DNA of 64,000 nucleotides from positions 1,600,001 to 1,664,000 of the forward strand of contig NZ_OY780933.1 in the NCBI RefSeq assembly GCF_963676065.1, read 5' to 3'. The notes below the pieces were generated by a model. That model saw only the letters and a list, made by a program, of their open reading frames with translations. It was not told where the DNA came from and ran no database searches. The position numbers and the translations under genes are program-made. Source of the stretch: Maridesulfovibrio sp. GTDB taxonomy: Bacteria; Desulfobacterota; Desulfovibrionia; Desulfovibrionales; Desulfovibrionaceae. Positions 338-28,541 of this stretch are shown piece by piece; positions within the stretch are counted from its first letter, which is position 1; each line of letters opens with the position of its first letter.

Positions 338-1826
338 ACAGAACGTCCATAGCAAGAAATGGAGACTTGAGAACCTTTACTACATCAAGGACGTAAAGGG
401 CCAAGAGATCAAGTTCAAGCCCAACTGGGCACAGTCTCGTTTCAACAAGGACGCTCACTCTCGAAACATCATCCTGAAGGCAAGACAGCTGGGGTTGACA
501 ACATTTGCTTGTATCGACGCCTTAGACGACTGCCTGTTTAAGAAAAATTTTAAGGCTGGGATCATCGCCCACGTAAAGGAAGATGCCCACGAGTTCTTTG
601 AAGACAAGATTCAGTTTGCCTACGACAGACTGCCCGAAGAAATAAGGGCGGCGAATCCGGCAACTACCGACAAGGCAGGAAAGCTGGCCTTTGCAAACGG
701 CTCCTCGATCAGGGTTTCGACCTCGTTTCGTTCAGGGACACTGCAAAGGCTGCATGTCTCCGAGTTCGGTAAAATCTGTGCCCAGTATCCCAAGAAGGCC
801 AAGGAGATCATCACCGGGGCCTTAAACGCAGTTCATACCGGGATGCGTGTGGACATTGAGTCTACTGCTGAAGGTCGCCTCGGCAAGTTCTACGAACTGT
901 GTACCGAGGCTGAGAATCTTCAGCTTTCAGGCGGCAAACTGACAGATGAAGATTTTAAGTTCTGGTTCTTTTCATGGTTTCAGCATCCGGAATACCGGCT
1001 TGATCCACACGGGGTGCAGATCACCAAGGAGATGCAGGACTACTTCGCCAAGGTCGAAGCGGAAACTGGCATCACCTTAGAGCCTGAACAAAAGGCCTGG
1101 TACGTCAAAAGGTACGCGGTTCTTGGTGACGACATGAAGCAGGAGTTTCCGTCCACTCCTGCCGAAGCTTTTGAACAGACGATTCAGGGGGCTTACTTCT
1201 CCAGTCAGTTCCAGAAGATTCGGAAAGAAGGACGGATTTGCCGGGTTCCGGTTCAGGGCGGAGTGTCCGTCGACACATACTGGGATCTTGGGATGAACGA
1301 TGTAATGGCAATCTGGTTTGTTCAGGTCATTGGCCGGGAGTGCAGACTGGTCGATTACTACGAAAATTCCGGCGAAGGCTTGGAATTTTACGCCAGAGTC
1401 CTTCAGGAAAAGAGGGTTGAGAGAGATTTCTTCTACGGGACTCACTACGGGCCTCACGACTTGGAGGTCCGGGAATTGGGAACCGGGATAAGCAGGATTA
1501 AGCGGGCTGGGCAGCTTGGGATTGATTTTCAAGTAGTCCCAAGGGTTGGACAGAAGTCAGACTCCATTGAAGCTGCTCGTAATGCACTAAGTCTTTGTTG
1601 GTTTGATGATGAGCATTGCTCACTGGGTATTCAGAGACTGGAAGGATACCGCAAGAAATTTAACGACGTGCTCGGGACTTATTCATCACAGCCCCTGCAC
1701 GACATCTGCTCAAACGGAGCAGATGCATTTCAGCAGCTTGCAATGGCCTGCCCGCTGTTTAGCGGCAGAGGACGAGGGTTCAAGTCCCGCCCAATCAAAA
1801 AAGTTTCAAGGAGAGGATGGACATAA
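312..1826 (+). CDS. Phage terminase large subunit (packaging ATPase/nuclease)
   Basis: Packages phage DNA into procapsids by ATP hydrolysis and cuts the concatemer. The 504-residue length is normal for TerL. A terminase-type Walker A-like segment (KARQLGLTT, residues 56-64) is followed by a Walker B-like LHVSEF (147-152), then a C-terminal RNase H-like nuclease domain whose first acidic motif is DLG at about residue 325. The frame can start at TTG 312, ATG 315 or ATG 318; a GGGG run at 307-310 sits close upstream, so ATG 318 is also plausible. It overlaps the small subunit upstream and the portal gene downstream by 10 nt, so the packaging genes are translationally coupled. Confidence 0.9.
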   Translation: MMMTLQEIEQNVHSKKWRLENLYYIKDVKGQEIKFKPNWAQSRFNKDAHSRNIILKARQLGLTTFACIDALDDCLFKKNFKAGIIAHVKEDAHEFFEDKIQFAYDRLPEEIRAANPATTDKAGKLAFANGSSIRVSTSFRSGTLQRLHVSEFGKICAQYPKKAKEIITGALNAVHTGMRVDIESTAEGRLGKFYELCTEAENLQLSGGKLTDEDFKFWFFSWFQHPEYRLDPHGVQITKEMQDYFAKVEAETGITLEPEQKAWYVKRYAVLGDDMKQEFPSTPAEAFEQTIQGAYFSSQFQKIRKEGRICRVPVQGGVSVDTYWDLGMNDVMAIWFVQVIGRECRLVDYYENSGEGLEFYARVLQEKRVERDFFYGTHYGPHDLEVRELGTGISRIKRAGQLGIDFQVVPRVGQKSDSIEAARNALSLCWFDDEHCSLGIQRLEGYRKKFNDVLGTYSSQPLHDICSNGADAFQQLAMACPLFSGRGRGFKSRPIKKVSRRGWT

Positions 1827-4030
1827 TGCAGACAGCTCTACCTCAAGCAGTCACAGGCCAACCTACGGGGTTTAAGAAAGGGATGCTGTCCGTAATTCCC
1901 AATTCTGTTCTTGAGGAGCAGGAGAAGGCAGAGGCGCAGCGTAGAACAGACTTACGTCAATCCCGTCCTGAAATAGTGGGTCTTGCTGCTCATGTCCGTA
2001 CTTCTTGGCAGGCGGCTAAACAGGCCAAGCAGCCCATTGAAAAGCGCATGATCGAATGTGCCCGCGCTCGGAAGGGCGAATATGATCCGATGGATTTGGC
2101 GGAGATCCAGTCTACCGGAGGGTCAGAGGTCTATATGATGCTTGTTGACGAAAAGTGCAGCGGTGCGGCCTCATGGATACGGGATATTCTCATGCAGCCG
2201 GGTGAGGAGCCATGGGGGATTGACCCAACTCCTATGCCGGACCTTCCGCCTGAAATAGCTGAAGACATAGCAAAGCAGGTTCAAATTGAGGCTATGCAGA
2301 TGCTTCAGTCTGACGTGGAGATGTACCAGCAGATAACCGGACAGCAGGCTACACACCAGGACGTAGAAGATCGGCTCCGCGACATTCAGCCGCAGATTAT
2401 GGAGCGGTTCAAGACTCTTTATGACGATAACCTCCGAGCTATTACCAAAGAAGCCAAGAAGAGAGCTGACCGCGCAGAAGCTAAGATGCGGGATATAGCT
2501 GTTGAATCCAATTTTAAAGACGCTCTTGACGAGATGATTGAGGACATTGTCGAACAGCCCGCAGGGTTCATTTACGGTCCGCTGGTTGTTCGCAAGAAGC
2601 AGCTCGAATGGAGGCAGGACGAAACAGGAAAATCTCATCCTCATGTGGCTGAAAAGCTGGTTCTGACCTTCAGAAGAATTTCTCCATTTGATGTTTATCC
2701 CGGTCCTTCAGCCACCAGCATCGAGGACGGAGACATCATTGTCCGTCACCGTATGAGTCGTAAGGCTTTGAGTTCTATGATCGGAGTGAAAAGTTTTGAC
2801 GACGACGCAATACGGCAGGTTCTGGACCATTATAGCTCCGGCATGACCAACTGGCTTGCCATGGACAACGAAACTACTCGTGAACAACTCGAAGACCGTG
2901 GACAGGTTGTTTCCGACCCTTCCGGTAAAATCGACGTGCTGCAATATTTTGGAAGTGTACAGGGACGTATGCTCATTATGCACGGGGTTCCGACTGAACG
3001 TATTCCTGATCCTTTTGCGGAATATGATGCGGAGGTTTGGTTGTGCGGTTCCTATGTCCTCAAAGCGACCCTTAACGCTGATCCGCTGGGCCGCAAACCT
3101 ATCTACAAAGCCAGCTTTCGCAACGTAGCCGGTTCTTTCTGGGGGCGTGGAATCCCTGAATTGATCCGGGATTGTCAGCGTACCGCAAACGCCACTGTGC
3201 GCAGCATGATCAATAATATGGGACTGGCTTCCGGTCCTATGGTTGGTGTTGATGTTAGCGCTATGGACCCCGGCGAAGACCTGACTGAACTCCATCCTTG
3301 GAAAATCTTTCAATTCAACATGGAGAACAAACCTTCCGGGCAGGCTCCGCTCTGGTTTTTCCAGCCTAATTCAAATGTGGGCGAACTGATGAAGACCTAT
3401 GAATTTTTTTCCAATGAAGCAGACAACAAGTCCGGGGTTCCCAAATACTCATATGGCACCGGTAAGACTCAGGGCGCAGCGGGAACCAGTTCCGGACTTG
3501 CAATGCTTATCAGCAACGCTGCCCGAGGAATCAAGGGTGTTATCCGCAACATGGACAAGGGAACAATCAGACCGCCGGTTGAAGCCCTTTTCGACTGGGT
3601 GATGCTTTATCAGCCTGATCCTGCGTTGCAGGGCGATTGTAAGATAGTTGCTCGTGGATCGTCCGCACTGGTTGCCAAAGAGCAGCAGGCCGTGCGCCGC
3701 AATGAGGCTATGCAAATCATTCTGAATAGTCCGGCAGTCCTGAATATGATCGGACCTGAAGGACTGGCCGAGTTCCTTCGGGGATTTTTTCAGGCTCTGG
3801 ATATTGGTGCTGACGAGATTGTCCCGCGTAAGGAAGTCATAGCCGCTCAGAACAACAAGGACATGATCATCCAGCAGCTGTCCGCGCAAAATCAACAGCT
3901 TCAGCAAGTTCTTGGCGGTGGGCAAGCCCCGCAAGGACAGCCTCAACAACAGCTACCCATGGGAAGGGCAGTAGATGACGCCGGAGCCGTACAGGGCGGT
4001 ATGGAAGCAAATCTTTTTCCCGGAGGATAA
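1817..4030 (+). CDS. Phage portal protein
   Basis: Forms the ring at the capsid vertex through which DNA enters and leaves. The 737 residues begin after a good ribosome binding site (AAGGAGAGG at about 1808-1816) that lies inside the end of the TerL gene. The protein is acidic and helix-rich in the first third (residues about 100-250, with a predicted coiled-coil stretch) and ends in a glutamine-rich low-complexity tail, as many podovirus portals do. Identity rests on size, position directly after TerL and general resemblance of the central region (for example the segment around GRGIPELIRDCQRTANATVR) to large podoviral portals. The exact family is not certain. Confidence 0.82.
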   Translation: MDIMQTALPQAVTGQPTGFKKGMLSVIPNSVLEEQEKAEAQRRTDLRQSRPEIVGLAAHVRTSWQAAKQAKQPIEKRMIECARARKGEYDPMDLAEIQSTGGSEVYMMLVDEKCSGAASWIRDILMQPGEEPWGIDPTPMPDLPPEIAEDIAKQVQIEAMQMLQSDVEMYQQITGQQATHQDVEDRLRDIQPQIMERFKTLYDDNLRAITKEAKKRADRAEAKMRDIAVESNFKDALDEMIEDIVEQPAGFIYGPLVVRKKQLEWRQDETGKSHPHVAEKLVLTFRRISPFDVYPGPSATSIEDGDIIVRHRMSRKALSSMIGVKSFDDDAIRQVLDHYSSGMTNWLAMDNETTREQLEDRGQVVSDPSGKIDVLQYFGSVQGRMLIMHGVPTERIPDPFAEYDAEVWLCGSYVLKATLNADPLGRKPIYKASFRNVAGSFWGRGIPELIRDCQRTANATVRSMINNMGLASGPMVGVDVSAMDPGEDLTELHPWKIFQFNMENKPSGQAPLWFFQPNSNVGELMKTYEFFSNEADNKSGVPKYSYGTGKTQGAAGTSSGLAMLISNAARGIKGVIRNMDKGTIRPPVEALFDWVMLYQPDPALQGDCKIVARGSSALVAKEQQAVRRNEAMQIILNSPAVLNMIGPEGLAEFLRGFFQALDIGADEIVPRKEVIAAQNNKDMIIQQLSAQNQQLQQVLGGGQAPQGQPQQQLPMGRAVDDAGAVQGGMEANLFPGG

Positions 4031-4033
4031 GTG

Positions 4034-4282
4034 ATGTTTTTTCCCCACAATAAAAAAGATTCCCATAACAAGACTCAGATTGCACACGCTCTATGCTCAG
4101 TAGCTGAAAGTCATGGAGGGAAGTTCATCATCAAGGAAATCGAAAAAGAACGGGAGAATTTGCACAGACAGATGGAATCAGCCCCGACCGACCTTTTCCC
4201 CATGATGCAGGGGAAGTGTCAGGCTTACACCGAGATACTGAAAGCGTTTGAAGTTGCGGAGGAGATCCGCCGTAATGCTTAA
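4034..4282 (+). CDS. Small phage protein of unknown function
   Basis: An 82-residue acidic/basic helical protein starting directly after the portal stop (TAA at 4028-4030, then GTG-ATG). I do not recognise a family. The sequence is rich in Lys/Glu with an EIEKERENLHRQME-like helix, suggesting a helical bundle or coiled coil. Start could be GTG 4031 or ATG 4034; the portal 3' end GGAGG at 4021-4025 serves as ribosome binding site. It is the last gene before a non-coding stretch. Confidence 0.6.
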   Translation: MFFPHNKKDSHNKTQIAHALCSVAESHGGKFIIKEIEKERENLHRQMESAPTDLFPMMQGKCQAYTEILKAFEVAEEIRRNA

Positions 4283-4306
4283 GGAATAAATTTCAATGGC
4301 AAGGCC

Positions 4307-4415
4307 CCCTGAACACATGGAACAGAGAGCCTTGCGCGGTTCGGGCTGGATAGCCCGGTGTGGCAACCTAAACTATCCAACACCCGACCTCGCAAGTCAA
4401 TCTCCATGCTCAGGG
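4307..4415 (+). ncRNA. Putative structured RNA (long imperfect hairpin)
   Basis: Five helices nest without conflict: CCCTGA 4307-4312 with TCAGGG 4410-4415; CATGG 4316-4320 with CCATG 4404-4408; CTTGCG 4331-4336 with CGCAAG 4391-4396; TCGGG 4341-4345 with CCCGA 4383-4387; TGGATAG 4347-4353 with CTATCCA 4373-4379, closing a 19-nt loop. It lies in the about 300-nt gap between the small gene after portal and the scaffold gene. I know no RNA family that matches. A 53-codon ORF (ATG 4296 to TGA 4457, weak AAGGA at 4281-4285) overlaps it, but its product looks unlike a protein. Function is unknown: transcript processing, translational control of the scaffold/coat genes, or a packaging-related RNA are all possible. 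Confidence 0.45.
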
Positions 4416-4419
4416 CCCA

Positions 4420-4556
4420 CATTAACCCTCATGACCGGGAATACCGGACAGTTTTGAACAGCATTGAGCGGAACACCTGCATTAACCGGGAGACTCGGCA
4501 AGCCAAAGCCGAACACCTCACCGGGTAGGCTCTGTAAAATGACCGGACAAAGCTGA
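4420..4556 (+). other. Non-coding leader with short repeats before the scaffold gene
   Basis: This stretch carries repeated words: CATTAACC at 4420-4427 and 4480-4487; GAACACCT at 4471-4478 and 4511-4518; several ACCGG motifs. Small hairpins are possible (CCGG 4435-4438 with CCGG 4444-4447; TCGGC 4495-4499 with GCCGA 4508-4512). No convincing gene lies here on either strand. It probably continues the structured RNA just upstream into the leader of the scaffold gene. Confidence 0.35.
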
Positions 4557-4580
4557 ATGGCTCTCGAAGGAGTTGTACTT

Positions 4581-5618
4581 ATGTCCAAGGATAAATTTGA
4601 AGGAATGCCCGCGCAGGTTCGCGCACTGGGTGAACTGGCCGACGAGGAAGAAGCTCGCATGCGTGATGAAAGGAAGACCGGGGATGACAATCCTGATCAG
4701 GCTCCCGGAGAGCAGCAGCCTCATTCTCCCGCTGATCCTAAGCCCAAGCCTGAACCGCAGCCCGGCGAAAACTGGGAACAGAAGTTTTATACCCTTCAGG
4801 GAAAGTACAACTCAGAGGTTCCGAGGCTCCATGCTGACAATCGCGAACTGTCCAATCAGCTCATGTCTATCCGTGAGGAAATGACAGAACTGAAAGGACA
4901 ACTTGAAGAAAGCCGGAAAGCCCCGGAAGGACCCGCCGCATCAAAACCGAGCAGTGTCGACAAACTCAACCCTGAAAGCTTTGGCGATTACGGGCCGGAG
5001 ATTGTCGAGATTGTAAACACTCTGAACGGCTATGTTGACGCTTTCCAGAATCAAGGAACCCTCGTCAACAAACAGGCTGAAACAATCCGCACCCTGCAAT
5101 CACAGATTCAGGGAGTTCAGGAGACTCAGGGACAACAGGCACAAGCCACTTTTGGTGAAAAGCTGACCAAGAAGTGTGCTGAATGGGAACGGTTGAATAC
5201 CGATCCTGACTTTAATTCCTGGCTGGACGAAAACGGATTCAGGGAAACCTTGAATCAGCATGCCCAGAATGGTGACGTAATAAGGACAGCAAAGCTGTTC
5301 AATCGTTACCTGACTGAATCTGGCAAAGCCCCTGCAGCCCCCAAAACCCCTCCCGAAGAAGAGCAGGTTAAAAAACCTGCTCAGCCCGATCTTGAGGAGC
5401 ACCTTGCACCTCAGGTCAATGGAGGGGGAACTCCTCCCGCTGACGCTCCGACCTTCTCAAATGGTGACATTCAGGTGTTCTTCCAGAGATGGTCACAGGC
5501 TGAAGCAGGAGGCGGTTATCCGTTTGAAGCGTGTGGAAAGCTGATCAGCTCCGGTGAAGATGCGGCCAAACTTGATTACGAAATATCCCGCGCAAACAAA
5601 GAAGGGCGTATCCGATAG
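4581..5618 (+). CDS. Phage scaffolding (capsid assembly) protein
   Basis: Likely guides coat-protein assembly and then leaves the procapsid. The 345-residue protein is very acidic and rich in Pro, Glu and Gln; a coiled-coil region (about residues 70-115, NRELSNQLMSIREEM-like) is followed by a second one around 165-190. This composition and the position immediately before the coat gene are typical of podoviral scaffolds. The frame is open from 4557, but ATG 4581 is preferred because GAAGGAG at 4566-4572 lies 8 nt before it. No protease domain is seen. Confidence 0.75.
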   Translation: MSKDKFEGMPAQVRALGELADEEEARMRDERKTGDDNPDQAPGEQQPHSPADPKPKPEPQPGENWEQKFYTLQGKYNSEVPRLHADNRELSNQLMSIREEMTELKGQLEESRKAPEGPAASKPSSVDKLNPESFGDYGPEIVEIVNTLNGYVDAFQNQGTLVNKQAETIRTLQSQIQGVQETQGQQAQATFGEKLTKKCAEWERLNTDPDFNSWLDENGFRETLNQHAQNGDVIRTAKLFNRYLTESGKAPAAPKTPPEEEQVKKPAQPDLEEHLAPQVNGGGTPPADAPTFSNGDIQVFFQRWSQAEAGGGYPFEACGKLISSGEDAAKLDYEISRANKEGRIR

Positions 5619-5649
5619 CCCTTAGCGCGGCCCTCAAGCGAGGTCATAT

Positions 5650-6567
5650 ATGGCTTTTCCTGTAAACGGTGTCCCGTCTCATAGCGGGACCAACATCCCG
5701 GTAATCTTTTCGGGCAAACTGCTCGTAAAGTTCTACGGCGCTTCGATTCTGACTCATATCTCAAACACAGACTATGAGGGCGAGATCAAAGACAAGGGCG
5801 ATACTGTAAAAATCCGGCTGACCCCGGACATCACCATTAACGACTACGAGAAGGGAACCCCTCTCGTTTATGAAAACCCGAACTCGGCTACTGTCGACCT
5901 GCTGATTGATCAGGGCAAGTACTACGGCGTCAACATCTTTGACGTCGATAAGGCTCAGTCTGACTACGAGTTCATGGATAAGTGGGCTGAAGATGCCAGT
6001 GAGCAAATGAAGATCGTCATTGATACTGATGTTCTTTCTGCTATTCCCGCTGACGCTCATGCAAGCAACATCGGCGCAACAGCTGGTGCGCAGTGCGGAA
6101 ACATCAACCTCGGAACTGCTGGCGCTCCTGTAGAACTAACCAAGGCCAATGTGCTCGATAAAATCGTTGAGTGCGGACAGATCCTTTCTGAACAGAAAGC
6201 GCCTGCCACTGGCCGTTGGATGGGCATCCCTCCGTGGATGAAGACCCGTGCGCTGCTCTCTGACCTCAAGGACGCCTCCCTCACTGGTGATGGTCAGTCC
6301 TCTCTGCGTTCCGGGCGTTTGGGCGTTATCGGGGATTTTACTCTGTATGAATCCCTGAACATTAAGCATGTGGTTGACGGCACTGACAATTGTGCTTCCA
6401 TTCCCTTCGGACACAAAAGCGGACTGACTTTCGCTTCTCAGCTGGTCAAGAATGAAACCCTCAAAAACCCCACCGACTTCGGAGATATTCTTCGTGGTCT
6501 GCAGGTTTACGGTTTTGAAGTGATCAAGCCTGAAGTCATGGGCGTTCTGTACGCAACCGGTAAATAG
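5650..6567 (+). CDS. Major capsid (coat) protein
   Basis: A 305-residue protein preceded by a CGAGGT ribosome binding site at 5639-5644. The sequence is consistent with an HK97-fold coat protein: an N-terminal arm, a segment rich in beta structure (KGDTVKIRLTPDITINDY-like), a region with DVDKAQSDYEFMDKWAEDASEQM, and a C-terminal P-domain region. It resembles coat proteins annotated in podovirus-like prophages. Placement between scaffold and head-tail adaptor genes supports this, and no other gene in the window is a better coat candidate. It is followed by a strong hairpin that may set higher stability or partial termination. Confidence 0.82.
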   Translation: MAFPVNGVPSHSGTNIPVIFSGKLLVKFYGASILTHISNTDYEGEIKDKGDTVKIRLTPDITINDYEKGTPLVYENPNSATVDLLIDQGKYYGVNIFDVDKAQSDYEFMDKWAEDASEQMKIVIDTDVLSAIPADAHASNIGATAGAQCGNINLGTAGAPVELTKANVLDKIVECGQILSEQKAPATGRWMGIPPWMKTRALLSDLKDASLTGDGQSSLRSGRLGVIGDFTLYESLNIKHVVDGTDNCASIPFGHKSGLTFASQLVKNETLKNPTDFGDILRGLQVYGFEVIKPEVMGVLYATGK

Positions 6568-6580
6568 TAACAACTAAGCA

Positions 6581-6604
6581 GGGGAGTCGTTAGTTCGGCT
6601 CCCC
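6581..6604 (+). terminator. Hairpin after the coat gene
   Basis: A 9-bp stem (GGGGAGTCG 6581-6589 with CGGCTCCCC 6596-6604, one G-T pair) with loop TTAGTT, then TTAATT. The short T run suggests partial termination or a 3' stabilising hairpin rather than a full stop, since late genes continue downstream. Confidence 0.6.
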
Positions 6605-6619
6605 TTAATTGGAGTAAAT

Positions 6620-7111
6620 ATGGCTGAAGTAAGTTTCCTTATACGTGATGATGGCGTGGTTTTCCCTTTCGATGAGAGGACTGCCGGGCGCAAAGATATG
6701 CGGCTCATGTCCAAAGCAGAAATGGAGCGTTATCGGACAAGCCTGAAACCGGACGGCAAGAAGTTTGTGGCTGATCCTTCCGCAGCAAGTGCAGCAGAAC
6801 TGGTTGAGTCTGATCTGGCTATCAATCTTTATAACGGCGAATACCTGGAATCCACCCCGGAGAATCTCAAGACTCCCGGTGTAATTGTCCTGACTGCTAA
6901 ACAGGCCGAGATTGCGCAGGCTGTGAAGGATGAACTCGATAAGGAAGAAGCCGAGGACGTACAGTCTGCGGCTGATAATTCCGACAACCTCGAATCCATG
7001 ACCGTAATGCAGCTTCGCAGCCATGCTAAGGCCAGATTCAACCTCGACATGCCTAACACCATCAAGAAGGCCGAGGCCATCGCCATTATCAGGGCCAAGA
7101 CCGGCGTATAG
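6620..7111 (+). CDS. Phage protein with C-terminal HeH/SAP-like domain
   Basis: 163 residues with ribosome binding site GGAG at 6610-6613. The first half is unrecognised. The last about 37 residues (from ESMTVMQLRSHAK) have the spacing of a small helix-extended-helix domain of the SAP/LEM/Rho-N kind often found at the end of phage head-completion proteins, which may bind nucleic acid. It sits between coat and adaptor genes, where head-tail joining or decoration proteins are expected. The role is inferred only from position and this domain-like tail. Confidence 0.6.
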   Translation: MAEVSFLIRDDGVVFPFDERTAGRKDMRLMSKAEMERYRTSLKPDGKKFVADPSAASAAELVESDLAINLYNGEYLESTPENLKTPGVIVLTAKQAEIAQAVKDELDKEEAEDVQSAADNSDNLESMTVMQLRSHAKARFNLDMPNTIKKAEAIAIIRAKTGV

Positions 7112-9916: not shown

Positions 9917-11515
9917 ATGGCTGAGATTGTAAAGGTTTGCGGTGTAGCCAGAGATAAGATTGCGTCTATTTGCGGCATCCAGAATATCAAGCGGATTTGC
10001 AGTATTGACTTTTTGGTAGTCGTTTTCGGTACGCTCATGTCTTTTTTGATTCCTGATGACATGGAAATAACCGAGGGGCACACCGTAGAAGGAAGCACGA
10101 TTATTTCCGGTGATCCCGATAAATGGATTGCAACCAAAAGCAAGGATCATGCGGACGGTAAACAGCTAGTTTCTGCTATCATGAAATACTTGCTGACTAA
10201 TCCGGTAGTGATGGAAATTCAGGTTGAATCTACCGCCAGTGTCCTCAAGGTTACATGTGCGATCGCAATTCTGCCCGGGCACTTTGTTATTACCGATCAA
10301 GGGCGCAGTCAGGTTGTAAGTGTCGTTGACCACGGGAACAACCTTTATACACTGACGCTCGCTACGCCGCTAACAACTGCTCCGGCATCGGCGTACCTTG
10401 ATCCTCTTTGGGTGTCGCTTTTACCATTCAACTCCACAACTACCGGCTTTGACACCCAAGAACCTGTTGAGGTCGGCGATATTATTTTTGCGGATACGGG
10501 GCAGGGAACGGTATTAACAGTATCGGAAAATACAGGCGTATATAGTGTAACTCTAACCGAGGCTCTACCAAGTATTCCTGCTATGGCAGTAAAAAAATCT
10601 AACGCCACTCTTAAGGTCGGCGTAGGCGCCACGGGTGAATATATGAGCCCGGAACAATCACTTACACTGACTGGCACACCTACGACCACATCGTTTGACG
10701 TTAATGGTGGATACGCCACTGAAATTTATACTGAAGGAGGAATTTTCAACAGCCTTATTGTTGATGGTGTGGAACAAGAAGTAAGCAGTGTGAGTGAGAC
10801 TGTTAATGAAGGTAATGCGACACCTGTATTACCAACTATGTCTGATTATACTCAAGACGGATTTACTGTAACCGCATCGGCTGATGTTGGTGCTGGCCCA
10901 GCGTACGAAGCTGCTGGTGATGGACCAGATGCTTACGGATGGGCGTGCCCTGATTTAATCGGTTGGTGGCAAGTTCATTTACCAGAACCTAGGTTAATTA
11001 CTGGGTATGATCTATGGGCGGCAACATCGTTGAACTGGGATAGAGACTATACAGCCACTTCTTGGGTTTTACGTGGATCAAATGATGGTATTAACTGGAC
11101 TATTCTTGACACTAAAACCGATCAACCTAACTGGAGTGCTGGAGAACAGAGACAATACCCGGTATCCCCAGATCAGGCATATGAATACTATAAGGTAGAT
11201 GTTTCTACGTCAGAGAGTGGTTCAACCAATGGTATCGGTAAAATTCAGATGTGCTATGTACCGTATGTGTATACCACAACCATAATTCCGGCAACAGAAC
11301 TCCCGGCAGTCCCTGAATCTGTATCCATTCCTGATAGACTACTCGATCTTCCCTGCTCTTTAACTTGTGCAATTACTTCTGGCGGTCTGGAAATTTCCGG
11401 TGAAAAAATTGTCTTTGAAGATAACCCGGCCCTTCGTGCTCTGGCTATGGCTATGAAGATTCCTGCGGGATGGACAGTCAAAGACTTGAGCATCCTCCCT
11501 GAAAGGATGGGCTAG
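9917..11515 (+). CDS. Fibre-like virion protein with discoidin (F5/8 type C)-like domain
   Basis: 532 residues. The N-terminus has repeated Cys/Gly units (VCGVA...ICGI...), seen in other phage fibres. Residues about 305-440 resemble a discoidin/F5-8 type C or CBM32-like jelly roll: WWQVHLPEPRLITGYDLW, then WVLRGSNDGINWTILDT and YEYYKVDVSTS, the pattern of domains that bind sugars. A receptor-binding or glycan-binding role is inferred. The DNA of this module (about 10760-11290) uses many more A/T-ending codons (TTA Leu, AGA Arg) than its neighbours, which suggests acquisition from another source. It lies between a fibre-like gene and the tail stabilisation-like gene. Confidence 0.68.
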   Translation: MAEIVKVCGVARDKIASICGIQNIKRICSIDFLVVVFGTLMSFLIPDDMEITEGHTVEGSTIISGDPDKWIATKSKDHADGKQLVSAIMKYLLTNPVVMEIQVESTASVLKVTCAIAILPGHFVITDQGRSQVVSVVDHGNNLYTLTLATPLTTAPASAYLDPLWVSLLPFNSTTTGFDTQEPVEVGDIIFADTGQGTVLTVSENTGVYSVTLTEALPSIPAMAVKKSNATLKVGVGATGEYMSPEQSLTLTGTPTTTSFDVNGGYATEIYTEGGIFNSLIVDGVEQEVSSVSETVNEGNATPVLPTMSDYTQDGFTVTASADVGAGPAYEAAGDGPDAYGWACPDLIGWWQVHLPEPRLITGYDLWAATSLNWDRDYTATSWVLRGSNDGINWTILDTKTDQPNWSAGEQRQYPVSPDQAYEYYKVDVSTSESGSTNGIGKIQMCYVPYVYTTTIIPATELPAVPESVSIPDRLLDLPCSLTCAITSGGLEISGEKIVFEDNPALRALAMAMKIPAGWTVKDLSILPERMG

Positions 11516-16848: not shown

Positions 16849-18021
16849 ATGTCAGATTTTACAGGATCAGCACTTAACGGAATAGTTCAGGGCATGCGCC
16901 TACATGATCAGGATCAAAGAGTTGAGGAGCAACACGATTGGAAGAAAGATAAACATCAATGGGAAGGTGAAACTCATCAGGCTTTGAATCTCCGGCGCGA
17001 CCTTGAAAATCAGGTTCTCCAACAGGGTATTAATGACGATCATGAATACCGTACAGCATTGAAAGTCAACCCCGGCACCATGAAGGCGGGGCAGGAAAAC
17101 AATGCCTATGATGATGCCAAGACAGAGCGTGAACGCGAACAGGACATGGCGCTCATGGCGCGTGGCTTTTTCCAGTTTGAGAATTCCGGTGATCCTAACT
17201 TTCTTACCGGGGCTATGGGGCAGACCTTTTTAGGCAAAGGCAAAAGCTATACTCCTCAGTGGGACAGAAATAGCAACACCTTTTCCATTATCAACCGTGA
17301 TGGAAAAGCGATTCTCAGCGCACAAGGCAAGACACAGGAAGAAATGATGGACAGGCTGCAGGATATGCTCATCATGGGCCTTTCCAATCCTGCAAACTAT
17401 TTGAAAGCCCGCAGTGCGAGAAGGCAGGCTCTTAATCTCGAAAACGTCAAGGCTGACAATGAACGGAATAAAATCAGATGGAATCGCGACGCAGGTATTG
17501 CTCTTGAGGGCGTGAAAGGGCTGAATAAAAGAAAAGCAATTGAACTTGAGCATGGGTTAAAAGAACAAGACAAGGATGACATTATTTTGCCCACTTCCGA
17601 TGGCAGGGGAGAACGGTTGACCCTTAAAGAAGCTCGTCAGCAGCTCACTGACATTAGCAAGTACCTCAAGGATAAGTCCGGAGATCAGTCTTTAGTTGCA
17701 ACCTTTGCTGCTATGCAGAGTGGACAGCTTTCACCAGAAGAGGTGTTTTCATCCAATGACGGAGAAATGTTGATTGAGCGCATTGAACAGATTGCAAGTA
17801 GCAATGCCGACAGCAGAGCACGCGGATATGCGCAGCGTTTTCTTGCAATTGTTGATGAAATGTACGGAGACTCTCCTTCTACTCCTAAGGCTAATTATGA
17901 GCCTGCACTTAATCCTGCAATTGCTGGGATGCGTGGGAACTCGCAACCTCCTAGCCCGATCAAGGAAAGTTATAATCCCCAGGCAGGAAGACATAGCGCT
18001 CAATCTTGGAGAGACTACTAG
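16849..18021 (+). CDS. Internal virion protein
   Basis: 390 residues, starting 8 nt after the previous stop with GGAGGAG at 16841-16847. Almost entirely helical and charged (QDQRVEEQHDWKKDKHQWEGETHQ near the N-terminus, long Gln/Arg/Glu stretches after), the signature of phage ejection proteins. It precedes the giant polyvalent protein by 8 nt, so the three are co-translated. No catalytic motif is seen. Confidence 0.68.
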   Translation: MSDFTGSALNGIVQGMRLHDQDQRVEEQHDWKKDKHQWEGETHQALNLRRDLENQVLQQGINDDHEYRTALKVNPGTMKAGQENNAYDDAKTEREREQDMALMARGFFQFENSGDPNFLTGAMGQTFLGKGKSYTPQWDRNSNTFSIINRDGKAILSAQGKTQEEMMDRLQDMLIMGLSNPANYLKARSARRQALNLENVKADNERNKIRWNRDAGIALEGVKGLNKRKAIELEHGLKEQDKDDIILPTSDGRGERLTLKEARQQLTDISKYLKDKSGDQSLVATFAAMQSGQLSPEEVFSSNDGEMLIERIEQIASSNADSRARGYAQRFLAIVDEMYGDSPSTPKANYEPALNPAIAGMRGNSQPPSPIKESYNPQAGRHSAQSWRDY

Positions 18022-18029
18022 GAGTCCAT

Positions 18030-21000
18030 ATGCATCAACATCCTGAAATCGCAAAATGGAACACTGACCCTGAATTTTCAGCACTTCCGGAAGAGGTGAA
18101 GGTTCAGAAAATCGGGAATTTTTTTGACCGTCAGTTGGTGGACAATGAGTTTTATTCTTTACCCAAAGCCGAACAGGTCGCAAGGCGTGGGCGGTTTGTT
18201 TCTTCCCATCTTCCTGCCGGGTCCGGTCAGTCCATCCAGCAGGCCCCGGAAGAGTCTTTTGTTGATTCGATTAAAGGCTTCTTTGATCCCGGTTTATCTG
18301 AGGAAGAAAAAGCACAATCAGCAATAGCCATCACCAACGCAGAAGACCAGAACCGCGGACCTCATGAATTTATGGGGCCTGACCGGAATGTGGTTACTGA
18401 TGTTGCTTTGAACCTTACTCGTGGCGCACTTGCGGATGCCCCTGAAACTCTGCTCCGCGCCGGGCGAACACTGGGTCTTGATACTGATGATGGAATTAAA
18501 GCCGTTCAGGATTTCAGAAATATAAATTTTCAGCCGTCGTTTCAGGCTTTGAATCAGCCTTTGCGCCGAGATATGACCGAGGGAGCTGCGTCGAGTGCCG
18601 CCAGCATGGTTGCCGGTGCGCCGGGAATGGTGGCAGGGGTAATAGGCGGACCAGTGGGAATGGCCGCAGGATATGCTACCAGCGGTGGTACAATCTATGG
18701 TCTGGCTGAATATGATCAGTTTATGGAAGAAGCAGAAAAGGCCGGACTTAATCGGGAAGATGTGAGACCAGAAGCTATAGCCTCGGCTGTCGCAGAAGGC
18801 GGACTTGAAGGGGTTTCCAATTTTCTGGATATGGTTTTGATGAAAGTCGGCAAACCCATCACCAGTGCTGCTACCAATCGTTTGAAGCTGTTCGCTACAA
18901 ACTACGCTAAGACCGTGGCTTCCGAAGTCCCTACAGAAATGGCACAGTCTGCATCTGAAGTAGCTCTACGGAACAAAGCAGGTTTTGAAGAGCAAAGCCC
19001 GTGGGAAGCTGCAAAGTCAGCTATTCGTCCGACGCTTTTCTCAGGTGTTGGCTTTGCCGGAGCCAGTACGCTTTCCAGAAGGCACAAGCCTATTCCTCAG
19101 GACAAGCCCACCGACTTGCTGAACGAGGGTTTGGAACCTCTGGAGGAGAAGCCTGTTCAGGCTCTTAACCTCTCCCAAGGCACAGCACGAGCCCTACCCT
19201 TGGATGCAATGCGCCAGCATTACCGACAGGAAGAGGCGAAGAATGGTCCGGCAGATAGTCCGCTAATGAATGCTATTGACGCTCAGTATGAACAGAATTC
19301 AGTGCCTTCCGCCTTACGTAGCGACATCATTGAGCGTAACCGCTTCCGTCCTTCTCCTGAGATTGAGGAGGGCATTAAAAGGGAAACCGCACTACGTGAA
19401 AACTCTCCTCTTGAAAGGTTCGACCACGCCGACACCCTTTCTGTTCAGCCGCAATCTCCAGTGGCTCCGACTCCTGTTCAAGAATCTTTTTCTTTATCTC
19501 CTCAGACAAATGAACACCTTGCGCCTACTCCCGTAGAGGAAACATTTTCATTATCTGGGCCTGAAGCTTATGTCGCTCCCGGCGAAGCCAAGGTAGTTGA
19601 AACTTCCCTTGGTCAGGCCGCACACGAAGCAGCCACTTCCCCCGTTAATAACCTCCCTGAGCCAACACAGGCCCAGAAGGAAGCCGGGAATTACAAGAAA
19701 GGTCACACCCGCATTCTGGGTATGGACATTGCCATCGAGAACCCTGCAGGTTCCGAGCGTTCCGGTAAAGATGATTCAGGCAAAGATTGGTCTGTACAGA
19801 TGGACCACCATTACGGCTACATTAAGGGCACTGTTGGCAAAGACAAGGACCACCTTGACCTTTTCATCAAAGACGGAGTTGAAGCCGATCAGGTGGAGAA
19901 TAAGCCCGTTTACGTGGTCGACCAGATTAATAAAGACGGTTCTTTTGATGAACATAAAATCATGGCCGGATTTGAGAACGAACAGGAAGCCCGTGCTGGC
20001 TACCTCTCCAATTATGAAGAAGGCTGGAGCGGTCTGGGTGCTATCACCGAAATGTCTCCCGAAAAGTTCAAGGGGTGGGTTAAGAACGGGAAGACAAAAA
20101 GGGCATTAGCATATAAGCGCCCATCTAAATCAGTTGGTTCCATAAATAAGCAAATCGAATCCGGCCCATACTCCCGCGAATCCCACGCCGATTTTATGGA
20201 CAAACTGAATAGCGGCGAAGTGGATTCTGAAACCTTCAAGCAGAACTTCAAGAAGGTTCAGGAAGGCAAATATTCCATCCTTGCTGACTTGAGCAAGCTG
20301 ACCAAGAAGAAGCTCCTGTCTATGACCGGCCTCCGCTACACCATGAGCGACAAGAAGGACACTCTTGTTCGTGCTGCATATGAAAGCATGGTCAATTCCT
20401 TTTCTCTGGGTAAGCCTATTTCTTACATGATGACCGCTGACGGTTTGAGTAAGGTTCGGGCTCTGGAAGACATAGTTAATTCTGTGACCGATGAAGATTT
20501 GAAAGCCCACGCTGAAGCTTACAGCAAACGCAGGGCCAAACAGGATGAATACATCAAGGGTAAGCAGAAAGCTTTGGATAATCCCGAGACCTATGAAGAC
20601 TATGAGTTCTTTGTCCGTGTTAAAGGAGTTGAGTCCCTTACCACTGAACAACATATGCGCTGGGACGAGCTTCAAGCTGAGAAGTCTGGTAAGCAGAAGG
20701 AAGCCCAGCGAGAGCAGCAGGCTACCGTTAAAGCCGTGCAGTCTGAAAGCGTCCAGATGGAATACAAAGGGCAGACCGTTCATTCCAAGCACGGACACGA
20801 TCTCTTCGTGGTTGGACTTGCTGAACGAGTAGACAAGCCTGTTTTTCAGGAACTCAAGAATAAAGCCAAGCAGCTAGGTGGTTATTATTCAATCTACCGG
20901 GCTAAAGGGGCTATCCCCGGTTTCCAGTTCAAGACCAAGGAAGCCGCTGACAAGTTTATAGGGCTGCAGGATGGCGATATTTCCAAGACCGACCTTATTG

Positions 21001-24000
21001 AACAGAAAGAGGATCAGTCTCAAAACAAGGCAGTCTCTAAGCTGAGGGGAATGGCTTCCTCCTTGCGTGAAAGCGCAGAGGAGAACCTTGGGCAGGAGCG
21101 CAAAACAAACACGGCGAGGAGAGCCAATCAAGCCGCATATGCTGAAGATCAGGCTCAAAAGAGTATCCAGTTCGCCCAGACCATGGAGAATCTTGCTGAT
21201 GCCATTGAGTCCGGTGAAGCCAAGATGCTTTCCGGTATCAAGGCCAAGACTCATGTGGAGTTGCTTGAATCTTTAACCCGAATAGCAAAACGGCAGCACG
21301 ATTCTGCCAATGATGTAAGCTATTCGCAAAGCCAGAAGACAACGGCAACCCCTGAACACATGAGTGCGGCTAAACTGCCCAGTTTGACCTTTGACCGGGG
21401 TGTCATCCTCGACATGGCAAAGGATGTTGAAACTATCCGGGGTGGTAAACGGCTTGCCTTGATGCTCAGGGCCAGAGCCAAAAGAGCGAAGCGCGTTCAA
21501 GGACGCCATGATCCCGTCTATAATTTCCGTTTGTATGATGAAAAGTTAATCCGCGATCTGGTTGCCAAGTTCAACCAGTCCGGCGATAAATATAAAGGCT
21601 GGCAGGTCCGTGACAAAGTTGCTGATCTTGACCGGCTGGCTCGCATGGGCATCACCACGGATGCCGAGCTGCGCGTTGCTCTGCGTGAATATCTCACTTA
21701 CCGCGGTAAAAAGATGAAGGCTGATCCGGTCAAGGAGGCTGAACGTGCTCTTGTTGGTCGCAAGATAGACGGCTACTTCCCGACTCCCAAGCCTATTGTT
21801 GAGCGCATGCTTGAAGAAGCAGAGGTTGAACCGGGAATGGATGTGCTTGAACCCAGTGCGGGCAAGGGCAATATTGCCGACCTCATCAAGGAAGATGAGC
21901 CGGAAGCCAACCTTGAAACCATTGAACCAGTGCAGGACCTGCGCACGATTCTTGAAGCCAAAGAGCATAATCTTGTTGGCCGGAATTTTCTTGAGCATGA
22001 CGGCGAATATGACCGCATCATCATGAACCCGCCTTTCGAGAAACGGCAGGACGTTGAACATGTAAGGAATGCTTACAAGTTGCTCAAGCCTGGTGGTCGG
22101 GTTGTAGCTATCATGTCTGAAGGTCCGTTCTTCGGTAAGGACAAAGTCGCTACCGACTTCAGGGAATGGCTGAATACTGTGGGCTGGTCTGAGAAATTGC
22201 CCGAAGGATCTTTCAAAAGTTCGGAACGTCCTACCGGTGTAGCAACCAGACTTGTCGTAATTGATAAGCCGGATGCTGTTTCCGGTGGCAATGCAGCCGA
22301 AACAAGCGTAAAATCCCCTGAAACAACCTCAATAGGAGCCGTTTCAGATGAGCGACACCAAGATACAGAAAGAAGACACAAACGAGTTCTGGGAGAACGC
22401 GACAGCGGAAGACGGGCTCGACCTTCTTCTGGCGATCAAGGACCAGAAGAGGGAAAAGGAACAGGATCAGAAAATCAGAACAGCAACCGAAGTACCCAAG
22501 GTTCAGCAGTAAGCGTACTCCACTCCGAAGGCGAGGACGCAGGTCATTATGAATTGCGTGAAGCTTCTGACCTTATTCCTTCCCATCAAGCGACTCAGGG
22601 ATTCAAAAAACATGAAGCCTATCCTGATGATGTTCAGGAGCGGCCTTATCATTCTGATAAGAACGAGCAGATCAAGGTAAAGACCAATGCGTCACAGCTT
22701 GATCCTCGTTTTGTCGTGTCTGATAACCCTGACGCTGTAAACGGCCCTCCTATCATCACCAGTGACGGTATTGTCCTTGGCGGCAACTCCCGGACCATGA
22801 GCATCCAATATGCCTACGAGAATTATCCCGATAAAGCCGGGAGCTATGTCGACGCCCTGAAGCGTAAGGCGGAAAGCTTTGGGCTGGACTCCAGCGACGT
22901 TAATTCATTCAGACAGCCGGTGCTTGTCCGTTCCATTGATGACAGCATCAGCCGTAAGGACATGGCCCGCAAAGCCCGTTTGTATAACCAGTCACGCATG
23001 CAGGGATTGGACTCCACTGCTGAGGGTATTTCCAAGGGTCGCATGATTTCCAAGCAGTCTATGGCGACTCTGGCTCAGGCTTTGGAAGACTTCTCGACCT
23101 TGCGCTCCTATCTTGATTCGAATAGCTCACGAAAATTGATTGATTCTTTGCTTGCAGATGGGGTTCTTGAATCTACGCAAATTGGCAAGCTCTCTAAAGG
23201 CACCGGTCTGCTTAACTCTGAAGGAAAGCGTCTTGTTGAGCTGGCTGTTCGTGGGCACATCATTGATGATTTCGACACTCTCGATAGATTGCCAGATAGC
23301 ATTCTGGAAAAATTGGACCGCATAGTCCCAGCTGCCTCCAAAGTCAAAAACAGAGGCGGAGACTGGGATATTACCCCCATTCTGAAAAATGCCCTGCAGC
23401 ATGTAGTCAAGTTCAGAGCTTCAAAGGCTGAAACATTGGATACTTACTTTGGGCAAGCCACTCTATTTGGTGAAGATTCAAGCAAGTCCAACCCTCTTGT
23501 GCAGAGGTTGGCGCGGGCTGCTGTGTCCGCCAAGCCTACCGTTTTCAGGGGAATGTGGACCGAGTACGCCAAGAAGGCCGTGGCAGATAAAAAAGACCAA
23601 GCAGCTTTACCCGGAGCGGAGCCTGTCTCGCCTGAAGAGGCCCAGAGGGCCTTTGAAGACAAAACACGGTTTTCATTTTCCAAAAGCAATCCTGCTAAAG
23701 GTTCTACAGTTGCCGAAGTAAAAGAGGTTATTTCCAAATTGGAAACAGCCTCTGTCAATGCTGGCCGCACTGAGGTTGTGCAGTCGGTCGAAGACCTGCC
23801 TCAGCACATTCAGGATGAATTCAATGCGACCGGCGGCGGGGTACTTGAAGCTGCGTACCATGACGGGAAAACCTACATTGTCGCTGACAGCATCCCGAAT
23901 TCAAAGCGGGCTGTACAACTGTGGATGCATGAACAAGGGGTCCACCATGGCTTGCGTGGCTTCTTTGGCGAGAAGGATTTGAAGCAGTTTTTGAGTAAGG

Positions 24001-27000
24001 TCCACCTTAGTGCAGCGAAATCCTCAATCTATAAGAACATCGTCGATCTTTATGGTTTGGATATTAATAAAGCCGAAGACCGCCAGATGGCTGCTGAGGA
24101 ATACCTTGCTCATGTTGGCGAAAAGGTGGGAGCCGGTGAAGCCCTTAGTGGGCGCGAAAAAAGCATATGGCAACAGATTGTTGCTATGTTCCGTCGTTGG
24201 CTGAACCAGTTGAGCTTTTCCAAGGACGCCACACTGACCTATGCGGAGATTGAGCAGACTGTAGCTGACGTTATTTCTTGGACCGTTCACGGCCCTGCAG
24301 GACAGTTAAGTTATGATGCTGATCCGGCGGTTGCCTTCTCCAAGGATGCGACAGAAGAGCAGCTTGAAGCCGGAAGACAGCTTCAGGAGGATATAGACGA
24401 GTGGAGCCAGCAACTTGATAATTTCAGTAAAGGCAAATTCAATAGTCGTAAAGATTTACAGTTGGGCGAAACCCCAGACGTACTCAGGAAATTAGGTATT
24501 CCTGCGCGCCCTATGGTTATGGTCCAAAGCGACGTTGCCAAAGTCATGTCGGATAGAGAGGATCACGCGATACCGCTTGAATCACTCAAGCAGCTTCCGC
24601 GACAGCTTGCAGCACCTGTAATGGTTTTCAAATCCGCAACAGTGCCAGACGCTTTTGTTTTTCTCACTGAGATTAAGCTGGGAAGAAAATCCGTGATGGC
24701 AGCAGTTCATTACGACACAAAAAGCCAGCATGTTAAAGTTAACAAAGTGGCAAGCATGTATGGTAGGTGGCCCAGTTGGTACGCTCGGCAGATGGAAGAA
24801 GGGAGACTTGTTTACAGAGACAAAAAGAAAAGCCTCGCTTGGGCGAGGACGAACGGGCTACAATTGCCCAAGGTTCCGCTCAAACGAGGCAACAATAAAA
24901 TAATAACTGAAAAAGATATTGTCAAGCCTGTATTGCCCGGTGATGCTCTGCGTTTCTCTCGTGGCGAAATGACTGCTCAGCAGGTAGTTGAAACAGTTAA
25001 CGAACCTGAAATCCGCAACTTCCTGAATGACAAGGATTTGTCAGCCCTACAGGAGGTCGGTTCACTCCCCCATTGGATTGCAAAGCGGTTTCCTGAGTTC
25101 CAGAAAATATATGAAGTCCATTTGGGTCGCATGGAAAAACGTTCGGCTATGTTCAGTGATTCGCTGGCAGAGGTAGAGGATTTCTTTACCGGGCTTAACA
25201 AAAAAGAGCTTCAGGAAATTTCTGATATGGTCTGGAAGCTGGACGGTGAAAAGATCAAGGATATTACTGAAAGTAAGTTTGTTGTTGCCACGGACAAGGA
25301 CGGTAAGAAAGTTCGCGAAAATGGACGTGCTGTCCTTGAGTCCAACCCTGAATTTTATGAGCAGTTTGAGAAATGGCTTAAAGGGCAGGGGATGTCCAAG
25401 AAAGCCGCTAAGGTTTTCCTTGCTGTGCGTAAGTCTTTGGATAGTGATTTCCTGCGGGCATATGATGCAATGCGCCAGATGTCGGATATCTCAGATTCTG
25501 ATCTGGATCAGTTTAGAAAGAATATCAATCATATTCAGAACTACTTTCCGCATCACCGGTATGGACAGTATTATGTAGCCGGTTATGCCGATGATGGGAA
25601 TGGTGCGCGTGTCTGCGTTTACCGGGAACATTTTGACGCACTCAACAAATTGCGTGCTAACACAATAGCTGCTGATAAAATTAAGGAATTAAAAGAAAAA
25701 TATCCTGATGTTCACACTTGGGATAAGGGTAAGAATCAGCGTCTTCCTGAAGAAGTCTATGGGGTGCCCATAGATAGCAACGCCATGGAACAGGTGATAG
25801 CGAGTGCCGCTTCATCAATTGCCGATCCTGATCAGGCCGGAGATATCCGCAACAAGCTGACTCAAGCGGTTTCGGATGTACTCAAGTCTCGTGGTTGGGG
25901 TAGTCATGCCATAGGACGCAAGAATATTCCGGGACATGAAACCGAAGACATTCGCAGAGTTCTGTATGATTACAAAGCAGGGTTGACCGGCTGGCTGACA
26001 AAGATGGAGGCCAGTAAGGAAATGACCGCCGCTGTGGGCAAAATTAATGCCCGGAAGAATCCGAAGCTGTACCGGTACGCTTTGACCTATGTTCAAAATA
26101 TGTTGCGTAACTCAGACAGCATTGACCGGGCCGTAGGCAACGTGAAGTCCTTAGCTTTCGCTTGGTATCTTGGCGGCAATATTAAAACCGCTGCGCTCAA
26201 CCTGACACAGAACATCATCACCGGTGTTCCTCGTCTGGGTATGGAGACAAACGCAGGAAGCATTAAAATTTTTAATGCAGCTGCAAGCAGCATTGTTTCA
26301 GCAGCCTCCGGATCAAAGAATCTTACCAAGGACGAACAGCGACTGCTTGATGATATGTATAAGGAAGGCATTATAACCGAAGCTTTCCTTGACGAGATCC
26401 GGGGTGAAGTTTCCGGCATATCCGGCTCCCGGGCTTGGAACAAAACTCTTAAATGGATGGGTATGCCCATGGCAATTGCTGAACGTTTCAACCGGGCTAC
26501 ATTGGCTCTCGCGGCGTACCGTGTTGCTCGTGACGGACAGCTCAAGAGGCAGGAAACAAAAGACGCTCTCGGTTTAAAGGAAGGCGACAAGGCAAGCTAT
26601 GACCAGAGCAAGCAATTTGCCGAGGGACTCGTTAATGATGCGCACTTTGTTTATGGCAAGGCGAATCTCCCTCAGCCGTTTCGTAGTTCTACACTCGGTA
26701 GGCTCGGTTCATCCATGTACACGTTCCGCACATTCTCCCACAACCTGCTTTCTTTGTGGGGCTGGATGCTCAGAAGTCAGGGCAAGGAGGGAGCAAAAGC
26801 TTTTGGTAAGAGTCTTTTTGCCACTGCATCCCTTGGCGGTGTAACAGCGTTGCCGTTTTACTATTCGGCTATGGCTATTACTCAAGCATTAACCGGAGAT
26901 GACGACGACTGGACTGAAGAGGTTCGCAAGAAGCTTCCTGAAAGCGATATTGCGAGAGATATAGTTTGCTATGGCGTTCCTGCTATGGCCGGGATCAGTA

Positions 27001-28464: not shown

Positions 28465-28541
28465 TGGTCGGGGCAGGATGATTTGAACACCCGGCATCTT
28501 GCTCCCAAAGCAAGCGCGCTACCAGACTGCGCCATGCCCCG
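28465..28541 (-). tRNA. tRNA-Pro (anticodon UGG)
   Basis: The minus strand folds into a full cloverleaf of 77 nt including encoded CCA: acceptor CGGGGCA with TGCCCCG, D arm GCGCAG..GGTAGCGC, anticodon stem CTTGC-GCAAG with loop TTTGGGA (anticodon TGG), T arm with GTTCAAATC, then discriminator A and CCA. Its 3' end points to the prophage, which is the classical layout when a phage uses the tRNA 3' end as attachment site. Confidence 0.97.

Follow-up and report, generated by a model that had tools for sequence, protein, structure and literature searches.

The window analysed here, a 64-kb stretch of a Maridesulfovibrio genome, carries a group of prophage head genes in which a non-coding gap separates a small open reading frame (ORF) from the gene presumed to encode the scaffold protein. 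The features of this region are given below in window positions.

1817–4030, plus strand: portal gene (SU10_portal; PF23899, E 7.7e-13; phrog_332 and phrog_1216).
4031–4282, plus strand: 83-aa ORF before the element, with a similar small ORF in relatives.
4285–4580, plus strand: full extent of the conserved non-coding element, which forms the leader of the presumed scaffold gene (268/296 columns identical to L002).
4581–5618, plus strand: inferred scaffold gene, 345 aa, located between portal and coat and presumed to be the target of the element.
5650–6567, plus strand: major coat gene (Phage_capsid_4; PF25209, E 5.2e-07; phrog_267).

The terminase was likewise recognised by its PHROG profile. 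The 345-aa protein matched phrog_13678 alone, a profile of unknown function, and no Pfam family; its scaffold identity is an inference from its location between portal and coat, which is the same in the window and in relatives. At the end of the structural genes, positions 18006–27638 hold a 3210-aa ORF for a giant multi-domain phage protein, in which InPase, MuF_C and ddrB-ParB domains exceed the Pfam cut-offs and a methyltransferase match falls slightly short. Elsewhere in the same genome (G000:C1:2790761-2792020) lies a second, distant relative of the portal (26% identity, E 1.6e-39), so that another prophage is probably present.

A preliminary description of this DNA had drawn attention to five nested, uncrossed helices at 4307–4415. 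Folding of this segment gave a minimum free energy (MFE) of -50.9 kcal/mol vs -29.98 +/- 3.49 kcal/mol in 200 dinucleotide shuffles, none of which was as good (z = -5.99), and the predicted helices, a 6-bp base followed by stems of 6+2, 6, 3+4 and 7 bp with an extra 3-bp stem at the tip, were close to those claimed. The antisense strand folded equally strongly (z = -6.00), as a hairpin would give. The hairpin is therefore real; its proposed extent was too narrow, for a second rod and a hairpin containing the Shine-Dalgarno (SD) sequence follow directly on its 3' side. The whole gap 4283–4580 was strongly folded (about 290 nt, z = -4.97; z = -4.77 for 4297–4583), and its predicted structure consists of two long rods and then the SD hairpin, in which copies of a recurrent internal loop, described below, are carried as follows.

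4307–4415, plus strand: rod 1, the hairpin noted at first, carrying loop copies 1 and 2 (z = -5.99).
4449–4555, plus strand: rod 2 of the MFE fold, carrying loop copies 4 and 5; it would span 4436–4566 if copy 3 were included.
4557–4576, plus strand: hairpin of the MFE fold that pairs the SD bases GGAG (4569–4572), alternative to copy 3.

The four SD bases had unpaired probabilities of 0.16, 0.005, 0.046 and 0.006. The SD was mostly paired in both folds examined, the MFE fold and the one that includes copy 3, so that the resting state is probably one of low translation. An on-state in which the SD region pairs with copy 3 was considered; some of the SD, however, remains paired when that fold is enforced.

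The only homologue that aligns with the gap was L002, a viral contig. Over all alignment columns, the identity between the two was 90.5% in the gap (4285–4580) vs 50.9% in the 83-aa ORF, 65.8% in the final 2 kb of the portal gene and 62.5% in the part of the scaffold gene compared, and the conserved stretch starts at the end of the 83-aa ORF and stops at the scaffold start codon. The 24 substitutions were spread 10/8/6 across the three frame positions without a codon pattern, and the alignment contains single-base indels. Open frames 47 to 97 aa long run across the stretch, and one of them has the same end in the window and L002. Considering the lack of frame bias, the indels and a conservation above that of the flanking genes, a coding reading was rejected, in keeping with the earlier impression that no convincing gene covers the hairpin. 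Between the window and L002, 12 of the 86 predicted pairs vary; pairing is retained in 2 of these through changes on both sides and in 4 through a change on one side, and is lost in 6. The expectation that the pairing would be kept in related phages thus held for half of the varying pairs and failed for the other half, in the one homologue that aligns, and these changes alone give only fair support for the exact structure. Stronger evidence than plain covariation is provided by the recurrent internal loop, which the preliminary description did not contain.

The element occurred at one place in its own 4.2-Mb genome at E <= 0.001, and an interspersed repeat (REP or MITE) was rejected for this reason. 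A blastn search of 50,697 phage records gave no match, a search of 199 genomes of a family sample and 348 of the class recovered only the genome of the window itself, and exact-pattern searches found L002 and otherwise just matches of 15 to 19 nt. The statement that no known RNA family has this shape agrees with Rfam 15, in which no family reached the gathering score at the element; the sole match in the window was a tRNA at 28468–28541. Matches to mir-3596, let-7 and DUF3085 RNA, which appeared in 4200–4650 when E values up to 10 were admitted, were below threshold and were taken as chance. At gathering score, the loci of 12 relatives contained nothing from Rfam 15 except two group I introns (L091 9317–9669 and L100 9617–9847; RF00028, 88 and 80 bits), which probably interrupt the coat gene, since the coat match resumes at residue 45 just after them.

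The internal loop was first noticed from small hairpins in the leaders of relatives. It is an asymmetric loop, R[AYAC]...[RC]Y, which reads 5'-R A Y A C - inner stem - R C Y-3'; its outermost letters, R and Y, form a pair, and the two arms occur in either order. Five copies are found in the gap.

4312–4316, plus strand: copy 1, AACAC, partner GC at 4408–4409; outer stem 6 bp, inner 5 bp; kept in L002.
4379–4383, plus strand: copy 2, AACAC with arms reversed, partner GC at 4345–4346; outer stem 7 bp, inner 4 bp; kept in L002.
4440–4444, plus strand: copy 3, AATAC, partner GC at 4560–4561; outer stem 5 bp, inner 2 bp; kept in L002.
4472–4476, plus strand: copy 4, AACAC, partner GC at 4529–4530; outer stem 5 bp, inner 4 bp; present in L002, where the outer stem has one A-C mismatch.
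4512–4516, plus strand: copy 5, AACAC with arms reversed, partner AC at 4493–4494; outer stem 5 bp, inner 3 bp; kept in L002.

Copy 3 is absent from the MFE fold and needs an alternative stem, which lies 2.1 kcal/mol above the fragment MFE when enforced. The gap holds five RAYAC pentamers, all used in loops; at the frequency of the pentamer across the window, the expected number is 0.74. In 1000 shuffles of the gap the loop occurred 0.098 times on average and never more than twice, vs five times in the 298 nt themselves, and a chance origin was rejected. When both strands of the 64 kb were tiled at 298 nt, the tile at the element contained 4 copies and every other tile at most 2. All five loops recur in L002 with two differences within them, both C to U at Y, and L002 contains a sixth RAYAC as well. 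In the window the reversed-arm copies lie inside both rods and the normal copies outside, and the arrangement therefore resembles an enlarged, nested version of the motif of the relatives.

The distribution of the loop was examined in a first set of 76 sequences (the window, eight relatives and 67 loci). The scaffold start could be placed in 56 of them, and 39 loci were left after removal of near-duplicates, L002 among them. A match required stems totalling at least 7 pairs and was counted in the zone if it started within 200 nt of the scaffold start; this is the same set in which the motif was spotted and the thresholds were chosen. The zone contained 36 matches, distributed over 21/39 loci, vs 16 matches in 312.6 kb of sense sequence and 12 in 324.7 kb of antisense sequence outside it. 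Dinucleotide shuffles of the zones yielded a mean of 0.72 matches (maximum 4 in 200 rounds), 59 control loop patterns with other letters or another order gave 0 to 5 matches each in the same zones, and the antisense strand of the zone had a match in none of the 39 loci at either 6 or 7 pairs. The variable loop letter was C or U in 32/36 matches. Upstream positions accounted for 25/36 matches and the coding region for the other 11. With 6 pairs and AYAC only, 25/39 loci had matches; no match was present in 18/39 loci at 7 pairs and in 13/39 at 6 pairs.

A second set was taken from the best 80 of 598 relatives of the coat protein and was reduced to 52 loci by removing overlap with the first set, duplicates, loci with an unplaced coat and short upstream stretches. 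In its zone, -1400 to -800 of the coat, which was fixed after the match bins had been seen, there were 15 matches in 31 kb vs 35 in the remaining ~409 kb of sense sequence and 15 in 440 kb of antisense sequence. Eight more matches lay at -600 to -200 of the coat, some of them perhaps from coding constraint. When the second set was searched with a covariance model built from 12 first-set hairpins, 12 matches had E <= 1, of which 9 were sense and 3 antisense; 8/9 sense matches were located at -1230 to -886 of the coat, including all three that had E < 0.01. This model misses the enlarged copies of the window itself, where its two matches are elsewhere, antisense and at E 0.5 to 0.8, and pair counts on the hairpin alignment are partly circular because its rows were chosen for pairing. 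The enrichment in the second set is genuine yet weaker than that in the first set.

The motif is not universal, as 18/39 first-set and 41/52 second-set loci had no match in the zone, the remaining 11/52 of the second set having one. One stretch each was scanned from P22, HMO-2011, CRP-13, Jace, Dorothy, phiM6 and RHph_TM3_14A, whose portal or coat is more distant, and no sense match was present within 200 nt of the scaffold gene or its likely counterpart; matches away from the scaffold numbered two in HMO-2011, one in CRP-13 and one in Dorothy. Among the distant-portal loci L010–L034 and L142–L149, scanned in stored orientation, the cluster appeared in L026 alone, a close relative; many of these loci stop short of the scaffold start, since most end about 1.5 kb after the portal match.

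The hairpins of the relatives are about 25 nt long and are placed at the ribosome-binding site. Among 35 first-set hairpins with AYAC on the 5' arm, 11 begin between -37 and -33 of the start codon and another 11 between -84 and -63, with one hairpin at each of these two distances in eight loci; their terminal loops vary, and the AYAC/RC internal loop is constant. Across both sets, 33/87 loci with a placed start (39 + 48) have the motif beginning before or at the start codon, including L189, whose start looks wrongly placed. In L157 and L160 a GTG start lies at the loop and SD-like bases lie in the 5' arm, in L168 the ATG falls by eye in the loop, in L172 the ATG overlaps the 3' arm, and in L165 the SD is possibly inside a weak covariance-model match (E 0.12). 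L006 and L026 carry the reversed-arm form distally and the normal form proximally.

Similar hairpins were also observed at other positions. Those ~60 to 110 nt inside the scaffold gene (L026 3935, L092 4198, L103 6882, L121 7639 and L126 3967) are either second binding sites or a coding coincidence. In L156, L157, L160 and L175, motif-like hairpins within the scaffold gene occupy similar positions, roughly between -510 and -470 relative to the coat; a conserved peptide or coding coincidence may account for them. In L125 (10326) and L128 (6369) the same loop hairpin precedes the coat match, not the scaffold, by ~60 to 80 nt. L113 has a hairpin-model match at 10996–11021 (24.3 bits, E 0.0004), ~1.6 kb after the coat gene, from which it follows that the loop may serve other genes too.

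Judged from sequence, the element is most probably a conserved cis-regulatory RNA with five putative binding sites, most likely a translational operator. The phage-specific regulatory RNA contemplated in the preliminary description is supported by the conserved island, the loop common to related phages, its restriction to the sense strand and its position at the scaffold translation start; the last two points, sense-strand restriction and placement, favour a translational operator. We accordingly regard it as likely, with a good margin of doubt, that the element would control translation of the presumed scaffold gene through a multi-site operator in the mRNA leader. At each site the asymmetric loop R[AYAC]/[RC]Y would break up a stem; such sites take the form of small hairpins in the relatives and number five, in two long rods, in this prophage, where the SD would be enclosed in structure at the base of the second rod. 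A protein made during head assembly may bind the loops and hinder ribosome entry, and scaffold synthesis would thereby follow assembly. A protein ligand is suggested by a loop that stays constant while the stems vary, and a head protein by the presumed scaffold function of the controlled gene.

The scaffold protein itself is a tentative first guess for this ligand, with chances somewhat short of even. The likely ranking places it first, followed by another head protein or the product of the small ORF, and then by a host factor. The small ORF is found in phages with and without the motif, and its product is a predicted three-helix bundle (pLDDT 91.4). Its PDB profile matches all had E >= 0.46, a fold search gave no match at E <= 0.001, a PHROG match was obtained for 1/25 members (E 0.0045), and four Pfam families were matched by one member each. 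A bolder proposal, which we hold with slightly less confidence than the first guess, is that of an undescribed RNA-recognition system of tailed phages, in which a head-assembly protein, most likely the scaffold, would read AYAC/RC and repress its own translation. Under such autorepression, free scaffold would sense the progress of assembly, and with its five sites in two rods the operator would act multivalently, as a sharp, cooperative switch.

Other explanations were weighed against the translational operator. The one that survives best, still unlikely, is that the element is an operator or stability element whose reader is not a phage head protein but a host factor, such as an RNase, a ribosomal protein or some other RNA-binding protein. 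Placement at the start site would be the same in both cases, and a loop common to phages of different hosts could point to a conserved host protein; against this, few copies of the loop occur in the rest of the window, and in the scanned loci it is confined to the scaffold start. A transcriptional element, whose RNA would act on RNA polymerase by antitermination, as in HK022 put, or attenuate head-gene transcription, accords with tandem hairpins within a late operon. It is improbable in view of hairpins that are fixed relative to the SD and start codon in the relatives and of a scan of 3950–4700 that found no terminator-like and no sense promoter-like site, with one weak antisense promoter-like site at chance level.

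More improbable still is an element acting as DNA, namely a linker at which head-gene modules recombine, a packaging site or a cruciform. The conserved stretch does end at gene boundaries, as recombination linkers may, whereas the loop is sense-only in the start zone (36 sense vs 0 antisense), and a duplex-DNA signal would have no reason to follow the sense strand. The phi29 pRNA is a separate transcript acting on the packaging motor, and a free structural or packaging RNA of that manner would suit about 290 strongly folded nucleotides (z = -4.97) among head genes. The relatives, however, have just ~25-nt hairpins at the ribosome-binding site, and neither a terminator-like nor a sense promoter-like site was seen next to the element, an absence that counts as weak in such scans; this explanation is very improbable, and the packaging RNA once considered for the hairpin is not supported, since the hairpins shared by the relatives sit where ribosomes bind. 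Least probable of all is a chance hairpin or the constraint of an overlapping gene, for which the crossing open frames, one ending alike in L002, might speak and against which stand the shuffles, the unbiased substitutions, the indels and the same loop in relatives.

If the translational operator is correct, a group of phages and prophages with an SU10-type portal and a Phage_capsid_4 coat controls head assembly via a compact RNA motif. Such a motif would be directly assayable, would offer a handle on how tailed phages keep the proportion of scaffold to coat, and could yield a new protein-RNA pair as a tool. In the open-licence literature, covered mostly as titles and abstracts, no paper was recognised for such a motif before a scaffold gene.

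Several known systems resemble the element in part. HK022 put RNA is a pair of tandem phage hairpins that acts on RNA polymerase. By description, the element is like it in consisting of tandem phage RNA hairpins, and differs in that the hairpins here are placed by the SD and start codon. In target, the nearest known system is the scaffolding protein gene of phage P22, which was reportedly found by Wyckoff and Casjens in 1985 to be autoregulated, the scaffold protein repressing its own synthesis at a post-transcriptional step. The kind of target gene is the same, and so would be the logic if the operator reading is right; unlike the element, P22 has a 13-nt gap before gene 8, and NC_002371 contained no sense-strand loop match in 1500–7000. 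The C-loop and other internal-loop modules recur, according to the accounts in PMC12510878, PMC3854523 and PMC7583486, and the element is like them in having an asymmetric internal loop recurring in unrelated stems, a likeness that serves as a lead only.

The nearest known system in working would be the replicase operator of single-stranded RNA (ssRNA) phages, of which family the element is not a member. As outlined in PMC3561173, the coat-protein operator of MS2, GA, PRR1 and M is located at the replicase start, and its recognition involves a terminal-loop adenine together with a purine left unpaired in the stem. This combination of adenine and purine was not found in the 35 hairpins, which have a constant AYAC/RC internal loop, varied terminal loops and often tandem sites. 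The placement in the initiation region expected of an operator of this type was found: in 19/33 loci the nearest hairpin has its 3' end between -25 and -8 of the start codon, and hairpins cover the start codon in L157, L160, L168 and L172. Both systems thus present a short hairpin with a sequence-specific unpaired feature at the translation start of a phage gene, in this case in a tailed phage with a DNA genome.
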